From the NCBI GenBank assembly GCA_004298665.1, contig SCQY01000048.1, positions 1 to 33,267 on the forward strand: DNA of 33,267 nucleotides, in the 5' to 3' direction. The stretch is from a bacterium. Its GTDB lineage: Bacteria > Vulcanimicrobiota > Vulcanimicrobiia > Vulcanimicrobiales > SCRA01. Below are positions 1-4,581 of the stretch, one piece after another. Position 1 is the first letter of the stretch. Each line of letters begins with the position of its first letter. The position numbers and the translations under genes were made by a program. The notes under the pieces were generated by a model that did not search any database, was not told where the DNA came from, and saw nothing but the letters and a program-made list of their open reading frames with translations.

Positions 1-584
1 TCGACACCGTAGAGCCGTGCCGGTACGTCGCGTGCCAAGAGCTCCTCGGTGCGCCGCCTCGCGCGCTCCTTGAGCTTCTCGACGGGCCCGAATTGAATGG
101 ATTCCGTGGGGCAGGCCTTCGCGCAGGCCGGCTCGATGCCGTCCTTCATACGATCGTAGCAGAGCGTGCACTTCTGTGCGACGCCTTGCTCTTCTTGAAT
201 GGCGATGACGCCGAAGGGGCAGGCCGGGACGCAGTAGCCGCAGCCGTTGCAGACGTCGGGCTGCACGTAGACGGCACCGAACTCGTTGCGTACGATGGCT
301 CCGGTCGGACAGGCTTCCATGCAGCCGGCGTGCGTGCAGTGCTTGCAGACGTCGGACATCATCACCCAGCGCGACTCGGCTGGGTTGATGCGGTCGAACT
401 GCTCGACGAAGTCCACGTGGCGCCACGTAGTCGCGGAGAGGCGCCCCGTGTTATCGTAGGAGTTGCCCGAGAACGCGTACCCGTCGGAAGGCAGTTGGTT
501 CCACTGCTTGCAGGCCACCTCGCACGCTTTGCAGCCGATGCATAGCGTGACGTCGGTGAAGAAGCCCATCTCTTCCCCACTCAT
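1..584 (-). CDS. fdhB: Formate dehydrogenase beta subunit, 4x[4Fe-4S] ferredoxin-like (C-terminus beyond window)
   Basis: This is the electron-transfer subunit that carries electrons from the FdhA active site to a downstream acceptor. 194 residues are visible from the ATG at 584; the gene runs off the left edge. Sixteen cysteines fall into four cluster motifs: C15/C18/C21/C25, C80/C83/C88/C92, C112/C115/C118/C122 and C139/C142/C154/C158. This is the four-[4Fe-4S] pattern of the FDH-N/HybA/DmsB family. No Tat signal or membrane helix is visible; the C-terminal anchor helix some members carry would lie outside the window. The start is ambiguous: in-frame ATGs lie at 599, 584 and 569. The one at 569 is preceded by a GGGGAAG Shine-Dalgarno-like stretch, while the one at 599 is the same ATG that opens each repeat-borne mini-ORF upstream. 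It lies downstream of fdhA on the same strand, separated only by the 80-bp repeat tract, so co-transcription is expected. Family assignment is firm; the natural acceptor is unknown. Confidence 0.9.
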   Translation of the reverse strand, partial: MSGEEMGFFTDVTLCIGCKACEVACKQWNQLPSDGYAFSGNSYDNTGRLSATTWRHVDFVEQFDRINPAESRWVMMSDVCKHCTHAGCMEACPTGAIVRNEFGAVYVQPDVCNGCGYCVPACPFGVIAIQEEQGVAQKCTLCYDRMKDGIEPACAKACPTESIQFGPVEKLKERARRRTEELLARDVPARLYGV

Positions 585-918
585 GTCGCTGCGCTCCATT
601 CGTGGGGACCCCACCGCTTTGACTGTTCCGGCGCACTCGCGCCAGGTTGTACCTTCCAGCTCATTGCGCTGCGCTCCATTCGCGGGGGCCCCACCGCTTT
701 GACTGTTCCGGCGCACTCGCGCCGGGTTGTACCTTCCAGCTCATTGCGCTGCGCTCCATTCGTGGGGGCCCCACCGCTTTGACTGTTCCGGCGCACTCGC
801 GCCGGATTGTACCTTCCAGCTCATTGCGCTGCGCTCCATTCGTGGGGACCCCGCCGCTCTGACTGTTCCGGCGCACTCGCGCCAGGTTGTACCTTCCCAC
901 CCATTGCGCTGCGTGCCA
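581..918. repeat. Four 80-bp tandem repeats plus a partial fifth, between fdhB and fdhA
   Basis: Units lie at 581-660, 661-740, 741-820 and 821-900, with a degenerate partial copy at 901-918. The period is exactly 80 bp, and copies differ at only a few positions, for example GGGGACC versus GGGGGCC, and GCCAGG versus GCCGGG. Each unit holds two dyads: one centred on GTGGGG(A/G)CCCCAC (about 602-614 in copy 1) and GGCGC-ACTC-GCGCC (630-643). The second extends to a 7-bp stem in copies 2 and 3. Because 80 is not a multiple of three, the reading frame shifts with every copy. There are no unique spacers, so it is not CRISPR. The array fills the whole gap between the fdhA stop and the fdhB start and contains no obvious promoter or terminator. 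It resembles a REP/BIME-like or minisatellite element; I do not recognise the family. Confidence 0.95.
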
Positions 919-922
919 TCAT
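581..922 (-). other. Chain of four overlapping repeat-encoded mini-ORFs linking fdhA to fdhB
   Basis: Read in the fdh direction, the repeats encode four ORFs: 922-821 (33 aa), 839-741, 759-661 and 679-581 (32 aa each). The consensus peptide begins MERSAMSWKVQ, continues with GASAPEQSKRWGP and ends EWSAAQ or EWSAAT. Each ORF stops at a TGA inside ATGA or CATGA, 19 nt past the first ATG of the next ORF. The first ORF starts at an ATG that overlaps the fdhA stop (ATGATGG). The last overlaps the fdhB frame, which opens with the same ATGGAGCGCAGCG at 599. Ribosomes leaving fdhA could therefore re-initiate stepwise all the way to fdhB. Whether the peptides are made is unknown. A codon-compatible repeat with incidental ORFs is the alternative. 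Confidence 0.5.
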
Positions 923-3900
923 CGTCGATCCTCGTGCCGCTGCGTGTACCGTGAGGCTGCCATGATCGTCTCGGGCGACACGATCTGCGCGGAGATCGCC
1001 TCCGAGCCGGACGCGGCTTCCACGGCGCCGGGGAGCGTCGGCGTGCCCAGCGGATTGCGCTGCCCCAGCGGCACGTCGTCGTCGGCCGCGAACGGATGGG
1101 CTGAGCTGCGGCGCCCGGCGCGGACGTTGCAAGTGAAGGCCTTGCCTTCGTGGATCGAGACGTTGGGGTCGGCCACCAGCGGGGGGAGGTCGTTCGGCGT
1201 GTCGCCGGTGACGACGCCTTGCGTCCCCCAATGCCACGGCAATCCGACTTGATGGACGAAGCGCCCTTTGCCTAGACGTATCGGCTGCATGCGCCCGGTG
1301 ACCAAGGCCTTGGCCTCGACTTCGGCGCGCGCCGTCTCGATCGTCACCCATTCCCCGTTGCGGATCCCGCGCTCCACGGCCAGCTCCGGCGAGATCTCGC
1401 AGAAGAGCTCCGGCTGCAGCTCCGCCAGCCACGGCAGCCAGCGCGACATCGCGCCGCTCAAGTGATGTTCGGTGAGGCGATACGTGGTGATGACGTACGG
1501 ATAGCGTGGATCGCCGATGTCGTGGTAGGGGTTGTCGCGGCGGCGCCACTGCTTGAGCACGGGATTGTACTGCGCGTGAGGATAGAGTGCGTTGCCGACG
1601 GGCGATTCCTTAGGTTCGTAGTGCGTGGGCATCGGTGCGTCAACGGTCCCGGTTGGGGCGAAGAGCTGAGCAACGCCGTCCGGGTTCATGATGAAAGGTG
1701 AGGCGCCGTCGTGTGCGTCGATCCCGCTGCCGTCGGCCTTCGCCGGCGTGCTCGGTGCTTTCGTGAGCGGGAAGTCGGGAACGTCGTAGCCCACCCACTT
1801 GCTCTGCGCCTCGTCCCACCACACGTACTTCTTGCGCTCGCTCCAGGGCTTGCCTTCGGGGTCGGCCGAGGCGCGGTTATAGATTTGGCGGCGGTTCGAA
1901 GGCCACGACCAAGCCCACTCCAGAGAGACCCACTGATCGCCCTTGCGGCGGCGCGTCAAGTTCTCCTCGGGGGTGGGATACATGCCGGAGTAGATCCAAC
2001 AGCCGCAGGCGGTCGAGCCATCGTCCTTGCACTCCGCAAAGCCCTTGAGCTGCTCGCCAGTGTCGGTGCGATAACCGTTCATCTCGCGCATCACCGCCTC
2101 GACGTCCGGATCGCCCAATGCGCGCTCGTGTGCGCTAGGGTGGTCATAGTCCCAGGTCATATCGAGAATCGGGCGATCGCGCCGCTGCGCGGAGGTAGCA
2201 TAGAGTTCCTTGAGGCGCTTGCCCAACTGATAGACGAAGCCGAGGTCGCTGCGGCAATCGCCGGGCGGGTCGACGGCCTTCTCGTGAAACTGCACCAAGC
2301 GCATCGTGTTAGTCAGCGTCCCCGCCTTCTCCGCGATGCAGGCACTGGGCATGAAGAAGACTTCCGTTGGGATCTGTTTCGGGTCCACGCCCTCGCGCTT
2401 CCAGAATGCAGCCGATTCGATCTCAAAGATATCGCGCACCACCAGCCAGTCGAGCTTGGCCATCGCATTGCGCTGGAACTCCGCATTCTGCCCGCCGACG
2501 GCGGGGTTCTGGCCGAAGAGCAGCATGCCGCGTACCGTTCCGTCCTTCATGCCCACGAACATCGGCATGTGCGAATGGTCGCCCGTGTTCTTCGGTAAGT
2601 AGTCGTAGGCCCAGTCGTTCTCCCGGGTGGCTGCGTCGCCGTACCATGCTTTCATGAACGAGACGGCGTATTTCGGGAAGTTGTTCCACCAGCCCGTGCG
2701 CGGGGTCTGGTGTCTGCACCACGTCGCGAAATCAGTCTCGCCTTTCTCGAGCGTGGGCGCCTTCAAGTATCCCGGGAAGAGATCGTAGAGTGTGGCGTTG
2801 TCCGTCGATCCTTGAATGGACGCATGGCCTCGCAGCGCCATGACGCCTCCGCCCGGGCGCCCCATGTTGCCCAGCAGCGACTGCAAGATGCCGCCGGCGC
2901 GGATGTTCTGCACGCCCACGCTGTGCTGCGTCCAGCCCATGGCATAGCAGAAGACGGCCGTTTTCTCGCGTCCGCTATTGGTGCAGAGGAGCTCGGCCAA
3001 CTCCAAGAACTTCTCGCGGGGCGAGCCGCAGATCCGCTCTACCATCTCCGGCGTATAACGCGCGTAGTGGCGCCGCATGATGTTCAGTACGCAATGCGGG
3101 TTCTGCAGCGTGGGGTCGCGTTTGGGGCGCGGCGCTTCGTTCTCTGCGCCGGGCTCCAGCTCGTAGCGCCAGGTCGACAAGTCGTAGGCGCCGTGATCCG
3201 GGTCCAATCCGCTGAAGACGCCGTCGAGGTCCTCGCTGTCGCGGTAGTCATCGTTGACGATGAACGACGCGTTGGTGTAGTTGAGCACGTACTCTTTGAA
3301 ATAGCGCTCGTGCTCCAGCACGTAGTTGATCAAGCCTCCCAGGAAGGCGATATCCGTCCCCGAGCGGATCGGTACGTGCAGGTCCGCCATGGCGCTGGTG
3401 CGCGTGAAGCGCGGATCGACGTGGACGATCTTGGCGCCTTTGGCTTTCGCCTTCATCACGAAGCGAAAGCCCACGGGATGACACTCGGCGAAATTGCTGC
3501 CCTGGATCACGATGAGATCCGAGTTCTGAAGATCCATCAAGAACGTCGTCGCGCCGCCGCGGCCGAAGGAGGTGCCTAGACCAGGCACCGTCGAGCTATG
3601 TCATATGCGCGCCTGGTTCTCGACGAAGGGCATGCCAAGACTCCTAAAGAGCTTGGCCATGAGGTAGTTCTCTTCGTTGTCCAGCGTGGCGCCGCCCAGC
3701 GATGCCAAGGCCATCGTCCGATTGACGCGCCGCCCTTGCTCGTCTTCCTCCTGGAACGTTGCGTCGCGCGTCTCCTTGATGCGTTGCGCGATGCGCTCCA
3801 TCGCCCAGTCCAGCGAGACGTCTTGCCACTCGGCGGCCCCCGGCGCGCGGTACTTGCATGTCTTCCAGCGGGCGGGGTTGACGTGGAGCTGAAACGTCGC

Positions 3901-4188
3901 CGCACCCTTCGGGCAGAGCGTTCCGCCGTTGATGGGCGAGGCGGGGTTGCCCTCGATGTCGATGATCGTATTGCCGCGATGGTAGACAAGCGTAGCACAA
4001 CCCACGGCGCAGTAAGGGCAGACGCTCGGCGTGACTTTAGCGTCCGCCGTGCGAGGGCGCAACTGACGCGAACGCTCGCTCATGGGGTTGGGTAACGTGC
4101 CGACGCGCTCGCGCAATACTTTCGCGGCGCGGTCGAAGAGCTGTTGAAGACCGGTCCCGGGCCCGAGTATGTCCTTCTTGGTTGCCAT
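919..4188 (-). CDS. fdhA: Formate dehydrogenase alpha subunit, selenocysteine- and Mo/W-bis-MGD-containing (UGA read-through at 3601-3603)
   Basis: This is the catalytic subunit oxidising formate to CO2 (or the reverse) at a molybdopterin guanine dinucleotide centre, similar to FdnG/FdoG. The full reading is 1089 residues from the ATG at 4188, which is preceded by AGGGGG. An N-terminal [4Fe-4S] site is formed by C57, C60, C64 and C92. The in-frame TGA at 3601-3603 is residue 196 in the context NQARI-U-HSSTV, matching the selenocysteine context and position (Sec196) of E. coli FDH-N. A SECIS hairpin follows. Downstream of the TGA the molybdopterin oxidoreductase fold continues uninterrupted (e.g. 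GSNFAECHPVGFRFVMKAK, VDPRFTRTSAMAD), with the dinucleotide-binding domain at the C-terminus (GEWVTIETARAEVEAKALVT). An automatic caller would split it into two ORFs (4347-3601 and 3588-919). There is no twin-arginine signal at the N-terminus, unlike periplasmic FDH-N, so a cytoplasmic location is likely. The stop at 919-921 overlaps the first repeat mini-ORF. Confidence 0.93.
3571..3603 (-). promoter_or_regulatory. Bacterial SECIS element with selenocysteine UGA codon
   Basis: On the minus strand the UGA (3603-3601) is followed by 11 nt (3600-3590) and then a perfect 7-bp stem, GGTGCCT (3589-3583) paired with AGGCACC (3577-3571), closing a GGTCT loop. The E. coli fdhF SECIS has the same 11-nt spacing and an apical GGUCU, which SelB recognises. 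The hairpin overlaps codons for conserved residues, as expected for bacterial SECIS elements. This implies that the genome encodes SelA, SelB, SelC and SelD elsewhere; none is in this window. Confidence 0.9.
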
Positions 4189-4293
4189 GCGATGCCCCCT
4201 GAAGAACGACTTGCAGCGCCTCCGATGTTCGATGGGGTGAAAGCGATCTCCCCGGCGAACACCTATTGCAGCAAACTTCTCGCTTTGCGGAAC
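4189..4293. promoter_or_regulatory. Divergent intergenic region between fdhA and moaD-like/AOR
   Basis: This ~105-bp gap separates the two divergent redox units and must hold promoters for both unless they are transcribed from further away. I could not identify a convincing -35/-10 pair or a -24/-12 (sigma-54) motif on either strand. The fdhA-side Shine-Dalgarno sequence (AGGGGG) lies at its left end. Confidence 0.4.
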
Positions 4294-4581
4294 ATGATGG
4301 AAAGAGATCGATCGGTGCGTCTGGAGCTTTACGGCATGGCTCGCCATCTTGTCGGCGAGGGCGCTCTCGATATCCCGGCGGAGTCGGCGGCGACGGTTGG
4401 CAGCCTCTTGCGCGAGGCGGCGCGTCTGGCCCCCGTGCTGGTTGGAACGGTGTTGGAACCTGACGGCACGCCGATCGCCCCGAACTACGTCCTACTCGAC
4501 GGGCGCAACGCCGTCGCCCCCGGAGATCCGGTGAGCGACAGCGACCATCCCTGTCTGTTCGTGTTGGCCTCGGGGGGATAG
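4294..4581 (+). CDS. MoaD/ThiS-family sulfur carrier, probably for the tungsto/molybdopterin of the adjacent AOR
   Basis: A small beta-grasp, ubiquitin-like protein of about 95 aa ending in the diagnostic C-terminal Gly-Gly (FVLASGG). In MoaD this tail is thiocarboxylated and donates sulfur to the pterin dithiolene. The central part (VGTVLEPDGTPIAPNYVLLDGRNA) followed by a PGDPVSDSD turn fits the family. The start is uncertain: ATG at 4294 or 4297, or GTG at 4315, which has a purine-rich GGAAAGAG about 8 nt upstream and would give 88 aa. It lies 6 bp upstream of the aldehyde oxidoreductase gene, a frequent pairing for AOR-family enzymes, and is divergent from fdhA across about 105 bp. I infer that it serves the cofactor of AOR and possibly of FdhA. 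It is not necessarily the housekeeping MoaD. Confidence 0.82.
   Translation: MMERDRSVRLELYGMARHLVGEGALDIPAESAATVGSLLREAARLAPVLVGTVLEPDGTPIAPNYVLLDGRNAVAPGDPVSDSDHPCLFVLASGG

Follow-up and report, generated by a model that had tools for sequence, protein, structure and literature searches.

The gap between fdhA and fdhB in the window, by which we mean the whole 33,267-nt stretch of DNA analyzed here, is filled by a tandem array of an 80-bp repeat that belongs to a dispersed, hairpin-forming family. Taken together, the analyses of this family make it likely that the array derives from a structured repeat that resembles MIRUs and is apparently mobile, and that enters DTGA stop/start junctions, duplicates the DTGA and leaves the coupling between the neighboring genes intact. 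The window alone offers little proof of this; the statistics in its favor were obtained at other loci and in the sister genomes.

The array was the one reported by TRF (direct repeat family D1) and occupies positions 580–913 on the minus strand, with a period of 80 bp, 4.2 copies, 94% matches and zero indels. Four consecutive element copies were recovered as covariance-model matches on the same strand, namely copy 1, which adjoins fdhA, at 813–892 (70.5 bits), copy 2 at 733–812 (75.3 bits), copy 3 at 653–732 (78.6 bits) and copy 4, which adjoins fdhB, at 573–652 (89.4 bits). Both flanking genes also lie on the minus strand. The upstream gene, fdhA (919–4188, with a putative upstream start), encodes the large subunit of a formate dehydrogenase. 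An in-frame TGA at 3601–3603, combined with a SECIS_3 match at 3548–3606 on the same strand (37.7 bits, which falls short of the gathering score of 63; E 4.5e-6), identifies the product as a selenocysteine formate dehydrogenase, in agreement with a preliminary description of this DNA that had named it a selenoprotein gene. The downstream gene, fdhB (3–584), encodes the iron–sulfur subunit, runs off the contig end and is 94–96% identical in the sister genomes.

The preliminary description had also reported that each repeat supplies an ORF of 32–33 codons, together forming a relay from the fdhA stop into the fdhB frame, and the ORF coordinates bear this out. On the minus strand, the ORFs run from 922 to 821, 839 to 741, 759 to 661 and 679 to 581, followed by the FdhB frame from the ATG at 599 or 584, and each mini-ORF stop does lie 19 nt beyond the first ATG of the following ORF. 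The second ATG of each unit provides a tighter arrangement than this 19-nt overlap, as it overlaps the preceding stop by 4 nt (ATGA), a feature that the preliminary description had touched on only briefly. Five ATGA overlaps were found in all (922–919, 824–821, 744–741, 664–661 and 584–581), through which the whole gap is crossable. The first of these junctions (919–922) connects the fdhA stop with the start of mini-ORF 1 (821–922), which reads MMARSAMGGKVQPG...SAAQ and has 33 aa; mini-ORF 2 (741–824; MSWKVQSG...SAAQ), mini-ORF 3 (661–744) and mini-ORF 4 (581–664) have 27 aa each, or 32 aa when read from the ATGs at 839, 759 and 679, respectively; and the last junction (581–584) connects the stop of mini-ORF 4 with the fdhB start (MSGEEMGFFTD). 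The overlap is thus present at all junctions, as the preliminary description had held, but the array copies are ~96% identical to each other, so that its occurrence in all four represents one inherited event, and their reading as four independent overlaps was dropped.

A GGAG lies 9 nt 5′ of each internal ATG in the fdhA–fdhB array. It was not relied on as a conserved Shine–Dalgarno sequence of the unit, the corresponding column varying among G, A and C in the family. An example of the peptides predicted from the relay at 581–922 is MSWKVQPGASAPEQSK. The frame of the element that the mini-ORFs use changes from locus to locus (PGASAPEP, RRECAGTF and PGRVARNL), which argues against selection for the peptide itself, and a conserved peptide product was ruled out on this ground.

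Diverged copies of the 80-bp unit were detected by BLAST on ~12 further contigs of the same genome, in which the covariance model produced 52 matches at E ≤ 1 (~40 copies). The other three genomes of the genus yielded 18–65 matches each, and in a survey of 149 genomes of the phylum the family was numerous in this one genus only (4 of the 149), with few weak or single matches outside it. Among 84,980 species genomes, the exact core pattern was confined to FW021_bin.48 and REEB356, two MAGs of this genus, and a search for viral carriage found no exact core match in the IMG/VR contigs. Altogether, the copies from the four species fall into ~62 separate locus groups, with arrays of one to five units. 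The element does not correspond to an RNA family known to Rfam, since a search of positions 1–4500 at E ≤ 1 returned the SECIS_3 of fdhA only. The Y1/REP-type transposase (PF01797) was absent from all four draft genomes, in which the controls were positive, and mobilization of the REP/RAYT kind was ruled out accordingly.

An alignment of fourteen copies revealed two hairpins on the sense strand of the element (TACAAACCGGGGCGAGTGCCCCGGAACCTTTCAAGCA..GGGGTCCCCACGAACGGAGCGCAGCGGAGTGAGTGGGGA). Hairpin 1 combines a GAGT loop with a stem that covaries across the family. In hairpin 2, TCCCCAC is paired to GTGGGGA, and the tip bears a GCGNAGC mini-hairpin. In copy 4, these structures fall on the minus strand at 628–645 (CTGGCGC-GAGT-GCGCCGG) and 574–608 (TCCCCAC...GTGGGGA), the latter holding the ATGA of the fdhB start. 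The first alignment showed pairing in 99.6% of the cells, compared with 27–45% when the partners were slid, and compensatory changes at 6 of the 17 pairs; in an alignment of 143 copies fitted to the model, such changes were observed at 16 of the 17. A second element type, which has the 3′ half in common and differs in the 5′ half, was noted at L108, L168, L171, L172 and L177, its 5′ half being composed of a variable inverted repeat around TCTTG followed by CTCCCGGAGGGG. Rare intergenic elements of the form GGGGTCCCC...GTGGGGA, which lack the DTGA, were encountered in a different family of the same order, at L184 (4905–4978; genome G024) and L185–L188, and these are possible distant relatives.

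The surroundings of the copies from the four genomes were scanned with a home-made codon-usage script that called genes on draft MAGs, with predicted starts, at the loci around element copies, and 105 clusters were classified. Within co-directional gaps, 61 clusters carried the element in the sense orientation and 3 in the antisense; after merging orthologues, 33 of the 35 loci were sense and 2 antisense (p 4e-8). Two of the three antisense clusters adjoin a tRNA-Leu gene. The host operons, whose gene names were assigned by reading translations, include rpsL–rpsG–fusA, rpsQ–rplN, rplV–rpsC, atpG–atpD, accD–accA, mutS–mutL, sucC–sucD and rbfA–DHH. The remaining copies are located between divergent or convergent genes, at the ends of contigs, beside tRNA-Cys and tRNA-Ser genes and, in one array, within a gene. 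Neither the random orientation nor the loss of conserved overlap that the preliminary description had set against its own proposal was observed, given this bias and the relays found in 17 of 20 gaps (see below), with the exception that a sizeable minority of loci lie outside co-directional gene pairs. Copies at L091, L097, L105, L118, L137 and L166 abut tRNA genes (Cys, Ser and Leu) exactly at the boundary and are often antisense to the tRNA. The in-gene array (L095, 3001–3230; contig C32 of genome G000) consists of three 75-nt units that keep the reading frame of the E2 (lipoyl acyltransferase) gene holding them and that follow the part encoding the lipoyl domain.

The relay observed in the window recurs at other loci of the family. 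Considering element-bearing gaps of up to 330 nt, a DTGA chain joins the upstream to the downstream gene in 17 of the 20 gaps whose upstream stop is part of a DTGA, whereas 6.1 chains are expected for a random interior of the same dinucleotide make-up, a random frame and at least two DTGA junctions (P ~4.5e-7, the true P being weaker than this value because orthologues among the 20 gaps make them not fully independent). Control gaps without the element that have a DTGA upstream stop contained no chain (0 of 15). An alternative null that also allows direct read-through gave 9.3 expected chains (P 3e-4). When the gap length is held fixed in the first null, 17 chains compare with 11.4 expected, a weak excess, which is explained by the fact that an in-frame gap in high-GC DNA is usually open. 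The link to translational coupling drawn in the preliminary description is thereby backed by data from the family as a whole. In the broader set of short element gaps, 26 of the 46 have no DTGA at the upstream stop, so that no relay is possible (e.g., rpsL–rpsG–fusA); these gaps, together with the loci that are not co-directional, indicate that DTGA is not the sole target. The native −4 overlap occurs in 40 of the 290 co-directional pairs in the studied loci. At L117 and L155, just past the stop of an rpsP-like gene, the first relay DTGA lies within a small inverted repeat (ATGAGC-GCAA-GCTCAT at L117), which could conceal the start codon from free ribosomes.

The 3′ motif of the element was found to differ with genomic context. 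It reads DTGA in 38 of the 46 copies in co-directional gaps versus 3 of the 16 copies elsewhere (Fisher p 8e-6 by copy and 3e-4 by cluster), and NCGA in 13 of the 16 copies outside co-directional gaps. The T/C position of this motif pairs with a column that switches between A and G (A–U in 59 copies and G–C in 43), so that the stem persists whether the stop/start signal is present or not. A tentative and rather doubtful reading of this pattern is that the family represents a new class of structured mobile element, in which the stem of the second hairpin would carry the stop/start signal. The element would act as a portable ribosome-relay module adapted to its landing place, with an origin separate from that of MIRUs. 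In operons, A–U with C–G (or U–A) pairs would then write the DTGA, through which ribosomes would be relayed; elsewhere, a compensatory change to G–C would erase the signal and keep the fold.

Copy-number comparison among relatives, which the preliminary description had suggested, uncovered 0, 3 and ~4 units at fdhA–fdhB in different species. In G001, the two genes carry no repeat and meet in a plain 4-nt ATGA overlap (GGTCATGATCGAC...GACATGGGATTT), and in G003 three units of unequal length keep the relay through ATGA, GTGA, ATGA and ATGA. Several more distant relatives (e.g., L068–L071) share a DTGA overlap at this junction, which suggests that the overlap without a repeat is probably the ancestral fdhA–fdhB state. 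At the accD–accA, uvrC, rfaE and L171 pairs, the empty sister sites are DTGA overlaps, except for one empty rfaE orthologue without such an overlap, and the filled sites exhibit a DTGA at both insert ends. The empty sister sites of sucC–sucD and rpsQ–rplN have no overlap. The mutS–mutL insert of G003 has a 13-nt direct repeat, ATGAGCATCCATG, on both flanks, and an element located before the start codon of the E2 gene at L095 is flanked by TATGAGCCGT repeats. These flanks have the appearance that a target duplication would give, with clean target duplications present at a few sites only. The differing occupancy between species and these apparent target duplications point to mobility of the family, presumably by transposition. 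At L225 (G001, before the holA-like gene of L112), an apparent element remnant seems to be joined in frame to the C-terminal end of the upstream gene product, and it still overlaps the following gene through a terminal ATGA.

Based on these observations, we propose that the array in the window would have arisen by local tandem expansion of a repeat that is specific to the genus, is non-autonomous and forms hairpins. This repeat may be spreading through the genome, and its favored insertion sites would include the DTGA 4-nt stop/start overlaps between operon genes. Insertion, followed by duplication of the unit, would leave each unit bounded on either side by a DTGA, with an open frame in between, the length from DTGA to DTGA being 2 mod 3, and would in this way convert a single coupled junction into a chain of coupled junctions. 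A ribosome ending fdhA could reinitiate at each ATGA and reach fdhB, so that insertion would be tolerated in an operon of coupled subunits. The mini-ORFs are predicted to be translated, and selection would have favored harmlessness rather than gain. The sense bias, the empty and filled sites and the DTGA relays all lend weight to the suggestion, already present in the preliminary description, of a mobile repeat that is harmless within operons.

That description had placed more emphasis on a dedicated regulatory relay, which would carry ribosomes from one gene to the other, guard against Rho termination or use copy number to adjust the FdhB:FdhA ratio. Such a role would fit a relay that is perfect at all five junctions and has persisted in two species, one with 4.2 units and one with 3, but it is difficult to reconcile with the sister species that has a bare ATGA overlap and zero repeats, and tuning by copy number finds no support, one species having 0 units and others 3 and ~4. 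Furthermore, the family also inhabits unrelated operons (ribosomal-protein, atp, acc, mut and suc), many of its copies occupy relay-free gaps or sites beside tRNA genes, and the peptide is not conserved. The array also lengthens a route that is already −4 coupled, and the extra reinitiation would be expected either to lose ribosomes or to change nothing. We regard a dedicated relay at fdhA–fdhB as quite improbable on this evidence.

It is also unlikely that the hairpins do all the work, as a structured mRNA or single-stranded DNA module in which the open frames would be a by-product of high G+C content and sense orientation. Roles in mRNA processing, stability, transcription pausing or DNA recognition for mobility would agree with the strong covariation of both hairpins and with the many copies in gaps without a relay, and stop codons in the sense core are modestly fewer than in shuffles (0.71 vs 1.05). 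However, this explanation does not account for the in-frame spacing in 17 of the 20 DTGA-type gaps, nor for the presence of DTGA in operons versus NCGA elsewhere. Replication slippage producing an array with neither functional nor mobile significance could explain the nearly identical copies in the window, which could stem from one duplication, and it may account for the number of units. As a full explanation it is refuted, and we give it hardly any credence, in view of a dispersed family of ~62 locus groups with orientation bias, covariation, and filled and empty orthologous sites.

MIRUs are known chiefly as mycobacterial strain-typing markers, and no transposase is known for them. PMC12548453, citing Supply et al. 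1997, presents them as short mobile repeats whose insertion at a start codon couples an internal ORF to the gene at −4 nt, with minimal impact on gene expression. The family described here resembles them in its short repeats, which lie singly or in tandem between the genes of operons, in their short ORF with −4 nt (DTGA) coupling, and in running in the same direction as the flanking genes (33:2 in our loci). The resemblance extends to insertion into an existing DTGA overlap, here at fdhA–fdhB, accD–accA and three further pairs, and to a presumed mobility that leaves the host gene almost unaffected. Unlike MIRUs, our family resides in an unrelated uncultured genus, bears two covarying hairpins, also lies inside coding sequence and beside tRNAs, chains up to four mini-ORFs at one junction, and swaps DTGA for NCGA, with the stem kept, outside operons. 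By every feature tested, the family works in the manner of a MIRU, the analogy being with the published description of MIRUs rather than with their sequence. It is apparently an independent, structured MIRU-like family, marked by multi-unit relays and by a stop/start motif that depends on context.

Other systems share fewer of these features. Rickettsia palindromic elements (RPE; PMC10969869) are likewise short structured repeats tolerated in frame inside genes, as in the E2 array. The copies studied here are mostly intercistronic, with one in-gene array and a frame that varies by locus, and the comparison of frames between loci detected no conserved reading frame and peptide of the RPE type. 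The REP/BIME, ERIC, Correia and MITE-like repeats are also small, dispersed and hairpin-forming, often lie in transcribed intergenic regions and are possibly mobilized in trans, whereas our family shows a sense-strand bias and a DTGA frame rule and has no REP-type Y1 transposase. Compared with native NTGA coupling (PMC12548453), the relay unit corresponds to an ordinary −4 overlap, but one that is supplied by an inserted repeat and chained.

The fdhA–fdhB series of 0, 3 and ~4 units provides a natural test of the number of successive termination–reinitiation steps open to a ribosome. It would also probe the −4 spacing rule, about which published reporter data disagree (PMC12548453). The proposal of silent insertion into coupled operons made for MIRUs rests on one lineage, and the family described here, with its covarying hairpins and with junctions that occur empty, with one unit or with several, would constitute a second, apparently independent one. 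If this is true, coupling-preserving mobile repeats would be a recurrent strategy and not a mycobacterial curiosity.
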